A stretch of 64,000 nucleotides of DNA, taken from a virus. The stretch covers positions 57,192 through 121,191 of the IMG/VR virus record IMGVR_UViG_3300001847_000838. The stretch is one strand, 5' to 3'. Of this stretch, positions 32,535 through 58,729 are shown one piece after another. A program made the position numbers and the translations under genes. How positions within the stretch are numbered: the stretch's first letter is position 1; the number at the start of each line of letters is the position of its first letter. The notes under the pieces were generated by a model that was not told the origin of the DNA, did not search any database, and saw nothing but the letters and a program-made list of their open reading frames with translations.

Positions 32535-32972
32535 TTATTTTTCATGCTGTTTTTCTAACGCAATGCGAGCAATTTCATGATAATTTATTGAACTAAATCC
32601 ATCATGAATATTAGTTTTTTCAGCAATTTTTTGTAATGCTTTTCTTAATTGATCGTTTTCAGTTTTAAGTTTTTGTATCTCTTCTTGAAGTGCTTTTTTT
32701 GCATTTGCTATATTTGTTGCTTTACAAGTTTCTGCGTGAGAGTATGAATCGCAGCTCTCATCACAGTCTTCATTCCATTCATCACAAATTTCTTTTAATA
32801 GTTGTCGAGTAATTTTTAAATCGTACCGCAATTTTTCTAGTTCCTGGCCGGATATTCCCACCAAATAGCCAGGGTAAGAAGCGGAGCTAGAACTTGTGCG
32901 GGTATGAAGTGGAAAACATTCTGGACAAACATAGGATGGATTTGACCACCCGTGAGTAATACAACTAAACAT
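32535..32972 (-). CDS. Hypothetical Cys-rich coiled-coil protein, 145 residues
   Basis: N-terminal zinc-like site (CITHGWSNPSYVCPECFP) and a long coiled coil (ALQEEIQKLKTENDQLRKAL). The first nine codons and the ribosome site GGAGGATTAAAATA are repeated at 33521-33554 without the rest of the gene. Function unknown. Confidence 0.68.
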   Translation of the reverse strand: MFSCITHGWSNPSYVCPECFPLHTRTSSSSASYPGYLVGISGQELEKLRYDLKITRQLLKEICDEWNEDCDESCDSYSHAETCKATNIANAKKALQEEIQKLKTENDQLRKALQKIAEKTNIHDGFSSINYHEIARIALEKQHEK

Positions 32973-32984
32973 TATTTTAATCCT
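32951..32984. repeat. 34-bp direct repeat, copy 1
   Basis: Begins CGTGAGTAATACAACTAAAC and ends TTTTAATCCT. Contains the ribosome site and first codons of the 145-residue gene. The second copy is at 33521-33554, in the same orientation. Confidence 0.85.
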
Positions 32985-33520: not shown

Positions 33521-33554
33521 CGTGAGTAATACAACTAAACATTATTTTAATCCT
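33521..33554. repeat. 34-bp direct repeat, copy 2 (gene-start fragment)
   Basis: Same 34 bases as 32951-32984. On the minus strand it gives ATG and eight more codons (MFSCITHVW) before a stop, so it is a stranded copy of the start of the 145-residue gene. Confidence 0.8.
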
Positions 33555-33570
33555 TTTTTTATTAAAAGAT

Positions 33571-33775
33571 GAATAAACACAAGGCAGGGCGCTACTCCTG
33601 CTTCTGGTTACGTTGTCCCTGGTAGCCAGAACGTCAACAAGATTAGCTTGGGATAGGGCTATAGCTTGTTCTTATGCGTGTCTCCAGTAATTCTCCTTCA
33701 ATACACGAAGCTCTTCGCCACACGTGAGGGGCTTAAACCCTCAATTACAGCTTTCCACGCCGCTTGTGTTTATTC
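33571..33775 (-). ncRNA. Candidate structured non-coding RNA, about 205 nt
   Basis: Found in a 303-base stretch without a gene. Ends form a perfect 13-bp helix: GAATAAACACAAG (33571-33583) with CTTGTGTTTATTC (33763-33775). Inside, in order: 33584-33588 with 33597-33601; 33603-33611 with 33622-33630 (nine pairs, one wobble); 33636-33641 with 33665-33670 plus inner 33644-33647 with 33658-33661; 33677-33681 with 33703-33707; 33708-33712 with 33749-33753 enclosing 33726-33730 with 33738-33742. G+C is 99 of 205, against roughly a third in the surroundings. All flanking genes are on the minus strand, so that strand is preferred, but strand is not proven. Not recognised as tmRNA, RNase P, 6S or a group I intron. 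Confidence 0.7.
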
Positions 33776-33804
33776 AAAATTTTTAAAACATTAGTTTATT
33801 TTCT

Positions 33805-34254
33805 TTATATTGTTTCCCTTATAATATTTTTAACTATTAAACTAGATAAATGTTCATTTTCTTTACGAGATAGCAAAAATACAGTACAAATTTTAATTCC
33901 AAGCTCTTCGTTAGCTCTAACAAAAGCTTTTTTATTTTCAAAGTCATTAATATTTCGTAATCCTTTTACGATTGCATACTCATTAATTTCTTGATTTTCT
34001 TGATCTTTTGCCATAAGTTCGTTTACAAACTCAACAAAAGATCCATTATAAGGAAGGACAATTACTTGATCTTTTGGTGCACCCGTGCGACGAAGAGCTT
34101 CCTCTACTCGCTCATAGTATTTCATTGATTTTTGAATGTTATCGCATTCTACAGCTACAACTATACGGTCAAACAGCTTAGAGGCATCTTCCATGATGCC
34201 AACGTGTCCTCTATGAACTGGATTAAACTTTCCTGGGATAACCGCCACTTTCAT
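33805..34254 (-). CDS. coaD: CoaD-like phosphopantetheine adenylyltransferase
   Basis: Nucleotidyltransferase of the HxGH class: PGKFNPVHRGHVGIMEDASK with HRGH at 14-17, then VKGLRNINDFENKKAF at 96-111 and LSSLIVKNI at 136-144, the place of the ISSS motif. This is the CoaD pattern (pantetheine phosphate to dephospho-CoA with ATP). 149 residues, slightly short of the usual 160. Other substrates are possible because the second half diverges. ATGA overlap with the upstream 69-residue gene. Confidence 0.78.
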   Translation of the reverse strand: MKVAVIPGKFNPVHRGHVGIMEDASKLFDRIVVAVECDNIQKSMKYYERVEEALRRTGAPKDQVIVLPYNGSFVEFVNELMAKDQENQEINEYAIVKGLRNINDFENKKAFVRANEELGIKICTVFLLSRKENEHLSSLIVKNIIRETI

Positions 34255-37379: not shown

Positions 37380-37456
37380 TGGTACTTCGTAAAGGAGTTG
37401 AACCTTTCTCTCGAACGCTTATAAGACGCCCTCAGACTACCGGCCCGCCACGAAGC
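37380..37456 (-). tRNA. tRNA-like gene, possible tRNA-Ile(UAU)
   Basis: 77 bases including an encoded CCA. Acceptor arms GCTTCGT and ACGAAGT pair (one wobble), discriminator A. T-arm AAAGG, loop TTCAACT, CCTTT is perfect. Anticodon arm GGCGT, loop CTTATAA, GCGTT reads anticodon UAU, but with three G-U pairs and a palindromic loop, so the anticodon is uncertain. The D-arm contains GGTAG but no good stem. Peptidyl-tRNA hydrolase lies 14 bases upstream on the same strand. Either a divergent tRNA or a tRNA mimic. Confidence 0.6.
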
Positions 37457-37470
37457 AAGGTTAAGATAAA

Positions 37471-37842
37471 CTATAACAATTTTAGACTTGCAGTGATTTT
37501 GTCGATTTCACTGTCATCCCAAGGACCAATTGCAACAGCTGTTCTAGTTTGTATACCATTAAATTCGGTATTTCCCGCATCTGTTACAATATAAGCAGAT
37601 ATACTGTTTTTAAGAGCTTCTTCGTGAATTTTAACAAGATCAATTTCTGAGTTAACTGAAACAACTATTTTTTTACTCCCCAATCGTTTCCATTGCTCAT
37701 AATAACGATGTGCACGCTTTGAGGCGCAATTTAATAAAATAGGCAACAAAACATTTTCTACAGCATGTGCGGCTTGTGCAATCATTTTACCTTTACGCAT
37801 CTTAAGGTCTTTACGGACCACAATAACCATTTTGGTATTCAT
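37471..37842 (-). CDS. pth2: Peptidyl-tRNA hydrolase, Pth2 family
   Basis: Pth2 frees tRNA from dropped-off peptidyl-tRNA. Signature MVIVVRKDLKMRKGKMIAQA then AHAVEN at the start, KKIVVSVNSEIDLVKIHEEA in the middle, and DAGNTEF ... RTAVAIGPWD near the end. 123 residues fits the family (about 115-120). Pth2 is the archaeal/eukaryotic type, also seen in some phages; most bacteria use the unrelated Pth1. A tRNA-like gene follows directly. Confidence 0.9.
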   Translation of the reverse strand: MNTKMVIVVRKDLKMRKGKMIAQAAHAVENVLLPILLNCASKRAHRYYEQWKRLGSKKIVVSVNSEIDLVKIHEEALKNSISAYIVTDAGNTEFNGIQTRTAVAIGPWDDSEIDKITASLKLL

Positions 37843-56906: not shown

Positions 56907-56970
56907 TTATTTTTATCTCCTTAAGATAAAAGATTATCTTTATTAAGTAAAAACTTTATATTACAAATAC

Positions 56971-57930
56971 TTATGTGCTTCCTACGAGCAGCTCTATATT
57001 AACGTGTCCTGTCCAATAGATCACGTCAGTTGTACCAGCCTTTACAGTAAGATTTAAGTCTGTTGCAGTAAGGCTGTAACCTACATCAAGATTGTTATCG
57101 TTCTTGATTGTTTGGTCAGATAGCCAAGTTCCTTGAGATTGAACATTACTAAGTTGTCTATAAAATAAGCCAGTTCTTTTAAAAGTACATCTTTTAGTTC
57201 CATCATCAGATCTTCCAACAACAATGTATTCTACTCTTACAACGCATGGGTTAGGTAAAGTTATAGAGTAAGCTATCTGTGAAGTTAATGAGTCAGTATA
57301 TAATGCAAAGGTTTCTTGACGAAGCCCGGTGCCAGGATAGCCCATGTGGCTTTTTTGATGAAAATGAGCTATAGGAATATCAACATCTGGTCCTAGCCCA
57401 AACCTTCCTTGCTTATCTATTTTAGCAACTCTAACATTGTTGGTGCGAATATTAAGATCTTTAGCATCAACGGTTCCTAAAAACTGCAGGTTATCATCTA
57501 TTCCTGCATTTCCGTCTAATGCCCAAAAATTCTTTTCAATCATAGAAACCGCTTCAGTTACTACATACAAGATGCCAACTGTAGCATCTTGTTTCATAAC
57601 TTGGGCTACTATACCTCCGTTAATTGTAGTAGATAAGTTTCCATTTGCGTCACTATAAAGATAGCTACCAACTGTCCAAAGTGAAGTGTCTACATCAACC
57701 ATAAAACCAAACGCACAAACCATACCGGTTTTTCCATTGGCTATAGTGTCATAAGTTACTCCAAAATTGGGATGCAAAGATGGATTGGCAAGCTCTACTT
57801 GAGGATAAGCAGTTCCCTGAGAAGTTAGCCTTACAGCCTTCATGGCTAATATTATACTTCCGGTATTGTTCTCCACCACCTCATTTGTTGGGCTGTGAAG
57901 GTCTCTTCCTTTGAGCCTTGAATGAAGCAT
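56971..57930 (-). CDS. Fibre-associated virion protein, 319 residues
   Basis: Beta-rich protein with a chaperone-like or adaptor look (GLGPDVDIPIAHFHQKSHMG, YTDSLTSQIAYSITLPNPCV) ending in an antiparallel sheet (DVIYWTGHVNIELLVGS). TAATG coupling with the gene before. Probably a baseplate-to-fibre connector. Confidence 0.65.
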   Translation of the reverse strand: MLHSRLKGRDLHSPTNEVVENNTGSIILAMKAVRLTSQGTAYPQVELANPSLHPNFGVTYDTIANGKTGMVCAFGFMVDVDTSLWTVGSYLYSDANGNLSTTINGGIVAQVMKQDATVGILYVVTEAVSMIEKNFWALDGNAGIDDNLQFLGTVDAKDLNIRTNNVRVAKIDKQGRFGLGPDVDIPIAHFHQKSHMGYPGTGLRQETFALYTDSLTSQIAYSITLPNPCVVRVEYIVVGRSDDGTKRCTFKRTGLFYRQLSNVQSQGTWLSDQTIKNDNNLDVGYSLTATDLNLTVKAGTTDVIYWTGHVNIELLVGST

Positions 57931-58148
57931 TAGATGGTCACCACGTTTCCATTATTATCTATAACTACCCTAGGTCCATCTTCTAAAAAAACTCCATAAG
58001 CTGGATCCCAGGTATGAAAAATATGTCCAGCAGAATTTCTTTGTGCGGTTACTATTCTGTCTGAATTAAAGTTTCTTACAACATCCAATTGTCCAGTTAT
58101 AGGATTAAGAACCAACTCTTCTTTATCGCGCGGACTATTATTACTCAT
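57930..58148 (-). CDS. Small virion protein, 72 residues
   Basis: LVLNPITGQLDVVRNF matches the NPVTGNLDLV opening of the 731-residue fibre, a common start for virion attachment proteins. ATGA overlap with upstream. Confidence 0.65.
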   Translation of the reverse strand: MSNNSPRDKEELVLNPITGQLDVVRNFNSDRIVTAQRNSAGHIFHTWDPAYGVFLEDGPRVVIDNNGNVVTI

Positions 58149-58729
58149 GATGTCCTCTTATATTTTATTGCGGATTTTGCTGCGTCATAAGTTACTTCTA
58201 TCACGCCCACAGGTAATGAGTTTTTAAAGAAGTTATAGGATAAGGGATCTTCTGAAGCATCTCTAATAATTGTTACTTCATCAAAGTCCGCAGGTGCTAA
58301 ACCTACAGCATTAACTATCTCAACAGGTATAGGATTATCTTTGCTATAATGTTCGCCGGTATCGTCAACAGCTATAACTCGCTTTGCAAGTATAGGTTCT
58401 TCTTCATAAGAAGCTCTATTTATGTGCTCTAAAGTTATACCGGGTCTAGGCTGTTTAGGTGCAGAAACCGCTGCATTATCTAATATTTTGTATGCAGATA
58501 CATTGATGCGGGCGTCTATATTTTCACCTTTTTTTCCTACATAAAAAGATGTAGAAGATTCAAAACGCTTTATTTCGACTTGTAAAGGAGGTTGGGTGTC
58601 AGACGTAAGAATGACAATTTGTTTAACAAAGAAACCACGCACATCTTCTACTTGCACGAGGCCGTAAGAAGATCCGTCGACGATGAAAGCACGCGGCTTC
58701 ACCTCTATCAGGTGTCTTTCAAACCACAT
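58145..58729 (-). CDS. Virion structural protein candidate, 194 residues
   Basis: Beta-rich protein (AFIVDGSSYGLVQVEDVRGF, RPGITLEHINRASYEEEPIL, DDTGEHYSKDNPIPVEIVNA). The last element is like phage structural proteins with NPLPV turns. First gene of the fibre operon after the tail-tube terminator. Confidence 0.6.
   Translation of the reverse strand: MWFERHLIEVKPRAFIVDGSSYGLVQVEDVRGFFVKQIVILTSDTQPPLQVEIKRFESSTSFYVGKKGENIDARINVSAYKILDNAAVSAPKQPRPGITLEHINRASYEEEPILAKRVIAVDDTGEHYSKDNPIPVEIVNAVGLAPADFDEVTIIRDASEDPLSYNFFKNSLPVGVIEVTYDAAKSAIKYKRTS

Follow-up and report, generated by a model that had tools for sequence, protein, structure and literature searches.

The put RNAs of phage HK022 are protein-free phage RNAs that lie just downstream of an early promoter; they are about 70 nt long and fold into two stem-loops (PMC9378689). 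They are antiterminators that act in cis on RNA polymerase. GOLLD and ROOL are large structured non-coding RNAs of phages and bacteria. Here we describe a structured RNA encoded within the window, which is the whole stretch of 64,000 nucleotides that was analysed and belongs to an IMG/VR virus contig of 121 kb. Like HK022 put, it is a protein-free phage RNA found near promoters, but it has no fixed downstream gene. Nor does it show a put-type size or fold, as its copies are about 105-280 nt long and possess a closing helix, three core helices and long variable domains. It belongs with GOLLD and ROOL as a large structured non-coding RNA of phages and bacteria, but it differs from them in lacking an Rfam match and in having, at its own length, its own core and covarying helices.

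None of the Rfam 15 gathering thresholds was reached by the window RNA or by 22 further loci, and permissive Rfam searches with the window RNA and sampled copies returned only chance-level matches or matches to T-arms and tRNA fragments. The core strings tried were absent from the openly licensed papers searched. In addition, ARAGORN detected no tRNA or tmRNA either in the RNA of the window or in those of L022 and L025-L045. At L283:3694-3871 (minus strand) an RNA copy is followed, 1 bp on, by a match to the Rfam DUF3800-VIII RNA, which sets two structured RNAs next to each other.

Other known systems that share some trait with this RNA were considered and rejected. Bacterial Y RNAs (Ro/Rsr) resemble it in their paired ends and in the tRNA-like modules of some copies, but TROVE was found in none of 38 IMG/VR records (carriers and tail-sheath relatives), and the conserved sequence differs. 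The terminal inverted repeat that closes the RNA recalls a retron msr-msd; RVT_1 was present in one of 30 carrier records (G063), approximately 55 kb from the nearest RNA copy. A TnpB guide was dismissed on similar grounds, since PF07282 occurred in one of 30 records (G050), approximately 120 kb from the RNA copy. Finally, the L033 copy has a T-arm similar to the one in tmRNA, but the match is far below threshold and there is no tag reading frame or acceptor end.

The folded stretch in the window

The initial annotation had described positions 33571-33775 as a G+C-rich, gene-free island closed by a perfect 13-bp helix. The G+C content of this stretch is indeed 48.3%, against 35.5% in the 1 kb on either side, and no credible ORF runs through it; the genes on either side, which are both encoded on the minus strand, have their near boundaries at 33805 and 33501. 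The ends are perfectly complementary as proposed, but over 14 bp rather than 13, with 33570-33583 pairing with 33763-33776. Folding of the plus strand gave -68.9 kcal/mol (z = -4.24), which was equalled by none of 200 shuffled sequences, and folding of the minus strand gave -61.6 kcal/mol (z = -2.1). Since shuffled 64-kb windows contain 0-3 pairs of perfect 13-bp inverted repeats, a terminal repeat of that length is not by itself rare in 64 kb; the decisive evidence comes from homologues.

Other features of the window were also recorded. An exact 33-bp direct repeat is located at 32952-32984 and 33522-33554. It spans the start of the gene at 32535-32972 together with the ribosome-binding site of that gene, and its second copy, which on the minus strand follows directly after the RNA, begins a nine-codon frame (MFSCITHVW) that is possibly a truncated duplicate or a leader peptide. 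A tRNA-Ile (anticodon tat) lies beside a peptidyl-tRNA hydrolase PTH2 gene at 37380-37842. When tail sheath and large terminase were compared with 50,697 phage records, the window phage had a single relative, Myxococcus phage Mx1, which is without the RNA. Mx1 carries an annotated TROVE-domain (Ro-like) protein at 56915-58564 (L221:6915-8564) within a large tRNA cluster; the TROVE matches in Mx1 are weak.

Homologues, strand and core fold

The tail sheath of the window phage led to 13 related contigs, while a search with the neighbouring nucleotidyltransferase protein yielded no relatives. Three collinear pieces of the window RNA were found in G006, in which the terminal helix differs in sequence with its complementarity kept and a second RNA copy is immediately adjacent. 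A pattern of conserved blocks produced matches in 21 contigs, and a covariance model (R1) built from 21 sequences found divergent and tandem copies. Further patterns and a second model (R2) brought the total to 122 distinct aligned copies, mostly on phage contigs. R1 matches the window RNA at 33573-33774 on the minus strand with 110.8 bits, and R2 matches it with 92.8 bits as the sole match in the 121-kb record. The parts of the window RNA are as follows.

33570..33776, minus: whole RNA, 207 nt, with its 5' end at 33776 and its 3' end at 33570
33763..33776, minus: P1 5' strand (UGAAUAAACACAAG), perfect 14-bp complement
33756..33760, minus: P3 5' strand (GCGUG), five of five pairs with compensatory changes in 85 copies
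33749..33755, minus: P3 internal loop, conserved 5' side (GAAAGCU), kept in most copies, some of which were retrieved by patterns that include GAAAGCU
33743..33748, minus: P3b 5' strand (GUAAUU), pairing with 33687-33692, 6 bp in the window
33693..33742, minus: inner variable domain, unlike that of most other copies
33687..33692, minus: P3b 3' strand, pairing with 33743-33748
33681..33686, minus: P3 internal loop, conserved 3' side (UGGAGA)
33676..33680, minus: P3 3' strand (CACGC), covarying
33602..33675, minus: outer variable domain, two predicted hairpins in the window copy
33584..33601, minus: P2 hairpin GCAGG-AGUAGCGC-CCUGC, adjoining P1 with no linker
33570..33583, minus: P1 3' strand (P1', CUUGUGUUUAUUCA), complement of 33763-33776

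In the 5'-to-3' direction of the minus strand, the elements of the core follow the order P1, CG, P3, outer domain, A, P2 and P1'. The core P3 has the form GCGUG.GAAAGC...GGAGA.CACGC and carries a conserved, purine-rich GAAAGC...GA loop or internal loop, and the P2 hairpin loop AGUMGCGN is conserved. Imposing the consensus fold on the window RNA costs 0.1 kcal/mol (-61.5 vs an MFE of -61.6 kcal/mol). A minimal subclass of about 107-150 nt is without the inner domain, its P3 being a hairpin with a 9-nt loop, GAAAGCAGA.

Covariation was measured in three alignments. In a plain MAFFT alignment of 21 copies, prepared without structure, 98% of positions assigned to helices were paired and covariation was 0.573, vs 0.162 for shuffled alignments and at most 0.15 for slid controls. 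With 85 copies, 98.4% were paired, covariation was 0.612 vs 0.155 shuffled, and all 21 modelled pairs (P1, P2, P3 and P3b) were altered on both sides; for 40 further matches, mostly of the minimal subclass, the values were 0.477 vs 0.106. The 85- and 40-copy alignments are biased toward the model because they were fitted to it, which does not apply to the 21-copy alignment. That P3 did not vary in the first of these alignments was not used as evidence, since the search pattern had imposed it. By helix, all seven modelled pairs of P1 vary on both sides across the family, and compensatory changes affect five of five pairs in P2 and four of four modelled pairs in P3b (85 copies).

The orientation of the RNA was assessed from pairing and from flanking signals. 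On the minus strand, the core helices of 85 copies contain 32 G-U pairs vs 5 A-C pairs. In 11 of 122 copies, vs 0.44 expected, a sigma-70 -10 box ends 5-7 bases before P1. Where good sigma-70 promoters are present, the end of the box is usually some 6 bases ahead of P1, a spacing that would place the transcription start on the first base of P1 or beside it. Downstream, TTTT follows within 12 nt of P1' in 26 of 122 copies vs 5.0 expected, an enrichment of about five-fold. Because G-U pairs exceed A-C pairs and both promoters and T-tracts point in the same direction, the functional strand is, by these sequence criteria, the minus strand, with the RNA running from 33776 to 33570. The plus strand implied by the initial annotation was thus the wrong one; its better folding energy is misleading, as the complements of helices are themselves helices. 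A discrete transcript with paired ends is likely. A minority of copies has a recognisable promoter and the window copy has no clear one, so that some of the RNAs may instead be processed out of longer transcripts.

Taken at the level of sequence comparison, the compensatory changes in every core pair show a conserved, structured, strand-specific phage RNA family with a constant core. The structured RNA proposed earlier is accordingly real. The initial annotation needs correcting as to which inner helices matter: only P1, P2, P3 and P3b are family-wide, and the others fall within the variable domains. The proposal of a new phage RNA family is strongly supported by folding better than that of shuffled sequence, by covarying homologues, by the absence of an Rfam match for the window RNA and sampled copies and by the absence of a conserved reading frame.

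Variable domains and carriers

Each full-sized RNA has two variable domains, an inner one on P3b and an outer one between P3 and P2. Most of these domains are dissimilar, but several outer types recur in unrelated phages.

Outer type A: L031, L034, L068, L077, L087
Outer type B: L026, L088
Outer type C: L036, L158, Paludibacterium, Cerasicoccus, P. aeruginosa phages
Outer type D: L033, L135

The helices of type C covary, and inspection of the alignment indicated that two helices of type A do so as well (GUGC/GCAC, GAGC/GCUC, AUGC/GCAU, GCGC/GUGU). Inner domains, which in some copies are recurring or tRNA-like, recur independently of the outer ones, as in L031 and L043. True tRNA-type T-arms were found on the strand of the RNA in 5 of 84 copies, vs 0.17 expected. 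The regulatory or host-mimicking role suggested in the initial annotation is so far unsupported, although such T-arms are present. L068 and L154 occupy the same locus, the upstream protein being 72% identical over 96 aa and the downstream protein 41%; the outer domain is of type A in L068 and contains a T-arm in L154. This difference, from one locus pair, suggests module replacement and not drift alone. Furthermore, L077, L079, L082, L085 and L160 contain adjacent same-strand copies that have different variable domains within the same genome. The variable domains could in part be neutral peripheral elements. L088 (G008:131360-131773) keeps its type B outer domain but is missing the conserved loop of P2 and most of that of P3; R1 scored this locus weakly and R2 reported no match, and it is possibly a decayed copy or a domain without the usual core.

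Contigs may carry several copies, and tandem copies share their orientation. When the window RNA was compared with isolate phages by blastn, only a chance match was obtained, in a protein gene of Rheinheimera phages. Isolated carriers are the P. aeruginosa phages phi297, AUS531phi, vB_PaeS-D14P and a PACL phage, together with Synechococcus phage Ssp-JY40 and Ochrobactrum phage POI1126. A first pattern applied to bacterial genomes gave zero matches; a second, with a shorter inner gap, gave five, all of which were confirmed (Pusillimonas noertemannii, Paludibacterium purpuratum, Cerasicoccus frondis, a member of the Armatimonadota and a gammaproteobacterial MAG). These copies are presumably in prophages. 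Among 399 genomes from the order of Pusillimonas only the known carrier was recovered, and one query each of E. coli genomes and plasmids gave no match. Overall, the hosts or prophage carriers belong to several bacterial phyla.

Gene neighbourhood and possible roles

The genes around the RNA are diverse, encoding nucleotidyltransferase, RecA-like, GroEL, terminase, portal, RecT, nuclease and tiny proteins. Clustering of the proteins of carriers revealed no shared neighbour or partner protein, and those common to many carriers were ordinary phage proteins. In a rough ORF call, which is unreliable in G+C-rich loci, the strands of the flanking genes were ++ in 33 cases, +- in 11, -+ in 10 and -- in 16; where neighbours were called, roughly one copy in two has flanking genes that are both co-oriented with the RNA.

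We consider it probable that this is a phage non-coding RNA acting in trans, whose constant core presents swappable effector domains. The core would serve as a chassis that folds on its own and perhaps, given that no phage protein common to the carriers emerged as a partner, as a point of attachment for a host factor. The exchangeable domains would be effectors binding an RNA or a protein of the host, most plausibly to take over the cell or to act as defence decoys; our leading guess is a role in host takeover or anti-defence. Both the action in trans and its mechanism are what we infer from sequence patterns. More tentatively, a shared RNA 'chassis' might extend across phages of many phyla, with exchanged modules, some of them tRNA-derived, acting on changing host targets. 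Such modules, which could for instance be defence decoys or inhibitors, would be the RNA equivalent of the swappable genes through which phages interact with their hosts.

The strongest competing explanation is a leader that acts in cis, in the manner of HK022 put; it would open the transcript and control the next gene as a put-like RNA polymerase modifier, a riboswitch or a translational control element. Promoters starting at P1 are consistent with a leader, the co-orientation described above would fit, and a start codon follows 10-28 nt past P1' in about one third of tabulated copies; a promoter and a close gene are combined in L042, L090, L133 and L135. The protein-free put RNA behind an early promoter provides a precedent, but put RNAs, at about 70 nt with two stem-loops, are unlike these RNAs in size (PMC9378689). 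Several copies lie before or near recombination genes, as in the P. aeruginosa phages, where they are upstream of a PD-(D/E)XK nuclease and RecT, but downstream genes are otherwise unrelated (GroEL, RecA-like, nucleotidyltransferase, structural, tiny). The convergent neighbour gene that abuts the RNA in L029, L030 and L280 argues against a universal leader role, and the T-tracts enriched after P1' suggest termination. We therefore regard the leader as unlikely, and catalysis as less likely still. Group I introns and RNase P have peripheral supports around an active site, and in a ribozyme of this kind the P2 and P3 loops would form the active site and the variable domains the supports. No Rfam ribozyme family was matched, no common motif for cleavage or splicing was noticed in the flanking sequences, and 5' ends coincide with promoters where copies have one; these findings stand against a compact constant core with conserved loops, a strongly variable periphery and a minimal subclass that dispenses with the inner domain, all of which a ribozyme would accommodate. 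It is highly improbable that the inverted repeats merely resemble RNA and mark a DNA-level packaging, replication or recombination site. Such a site would suit intergenic positions in phages, sometimes near terminase or recombination genes, but DNA would not favour the G-U excess on one strand, and the promoters and T-tracts flank the element in one orientation, with several copies per contig and tandem copies oriented alike.

A structured RNA that has a constant core with exchangeable domains, and that is present in phages and likely prophages of several phyla and outside Rfam 15, points to an overlooked common phage strategy. Isolated phages of P. aeruginosa and Ochrobactrum that carry copies already allow expression, structure and function to be tested. 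Should the variable domains prove to be effectors, the family would amount to a natural library of host-directed RNAs.

As a separate observation on the proteins of these contigs, an 828-aa terminase-like protein at L202:9441-11927 (G032) seems, by eye, to hold an intein (CLAKGTLVYTTKGPKKIEEI ... VHN).
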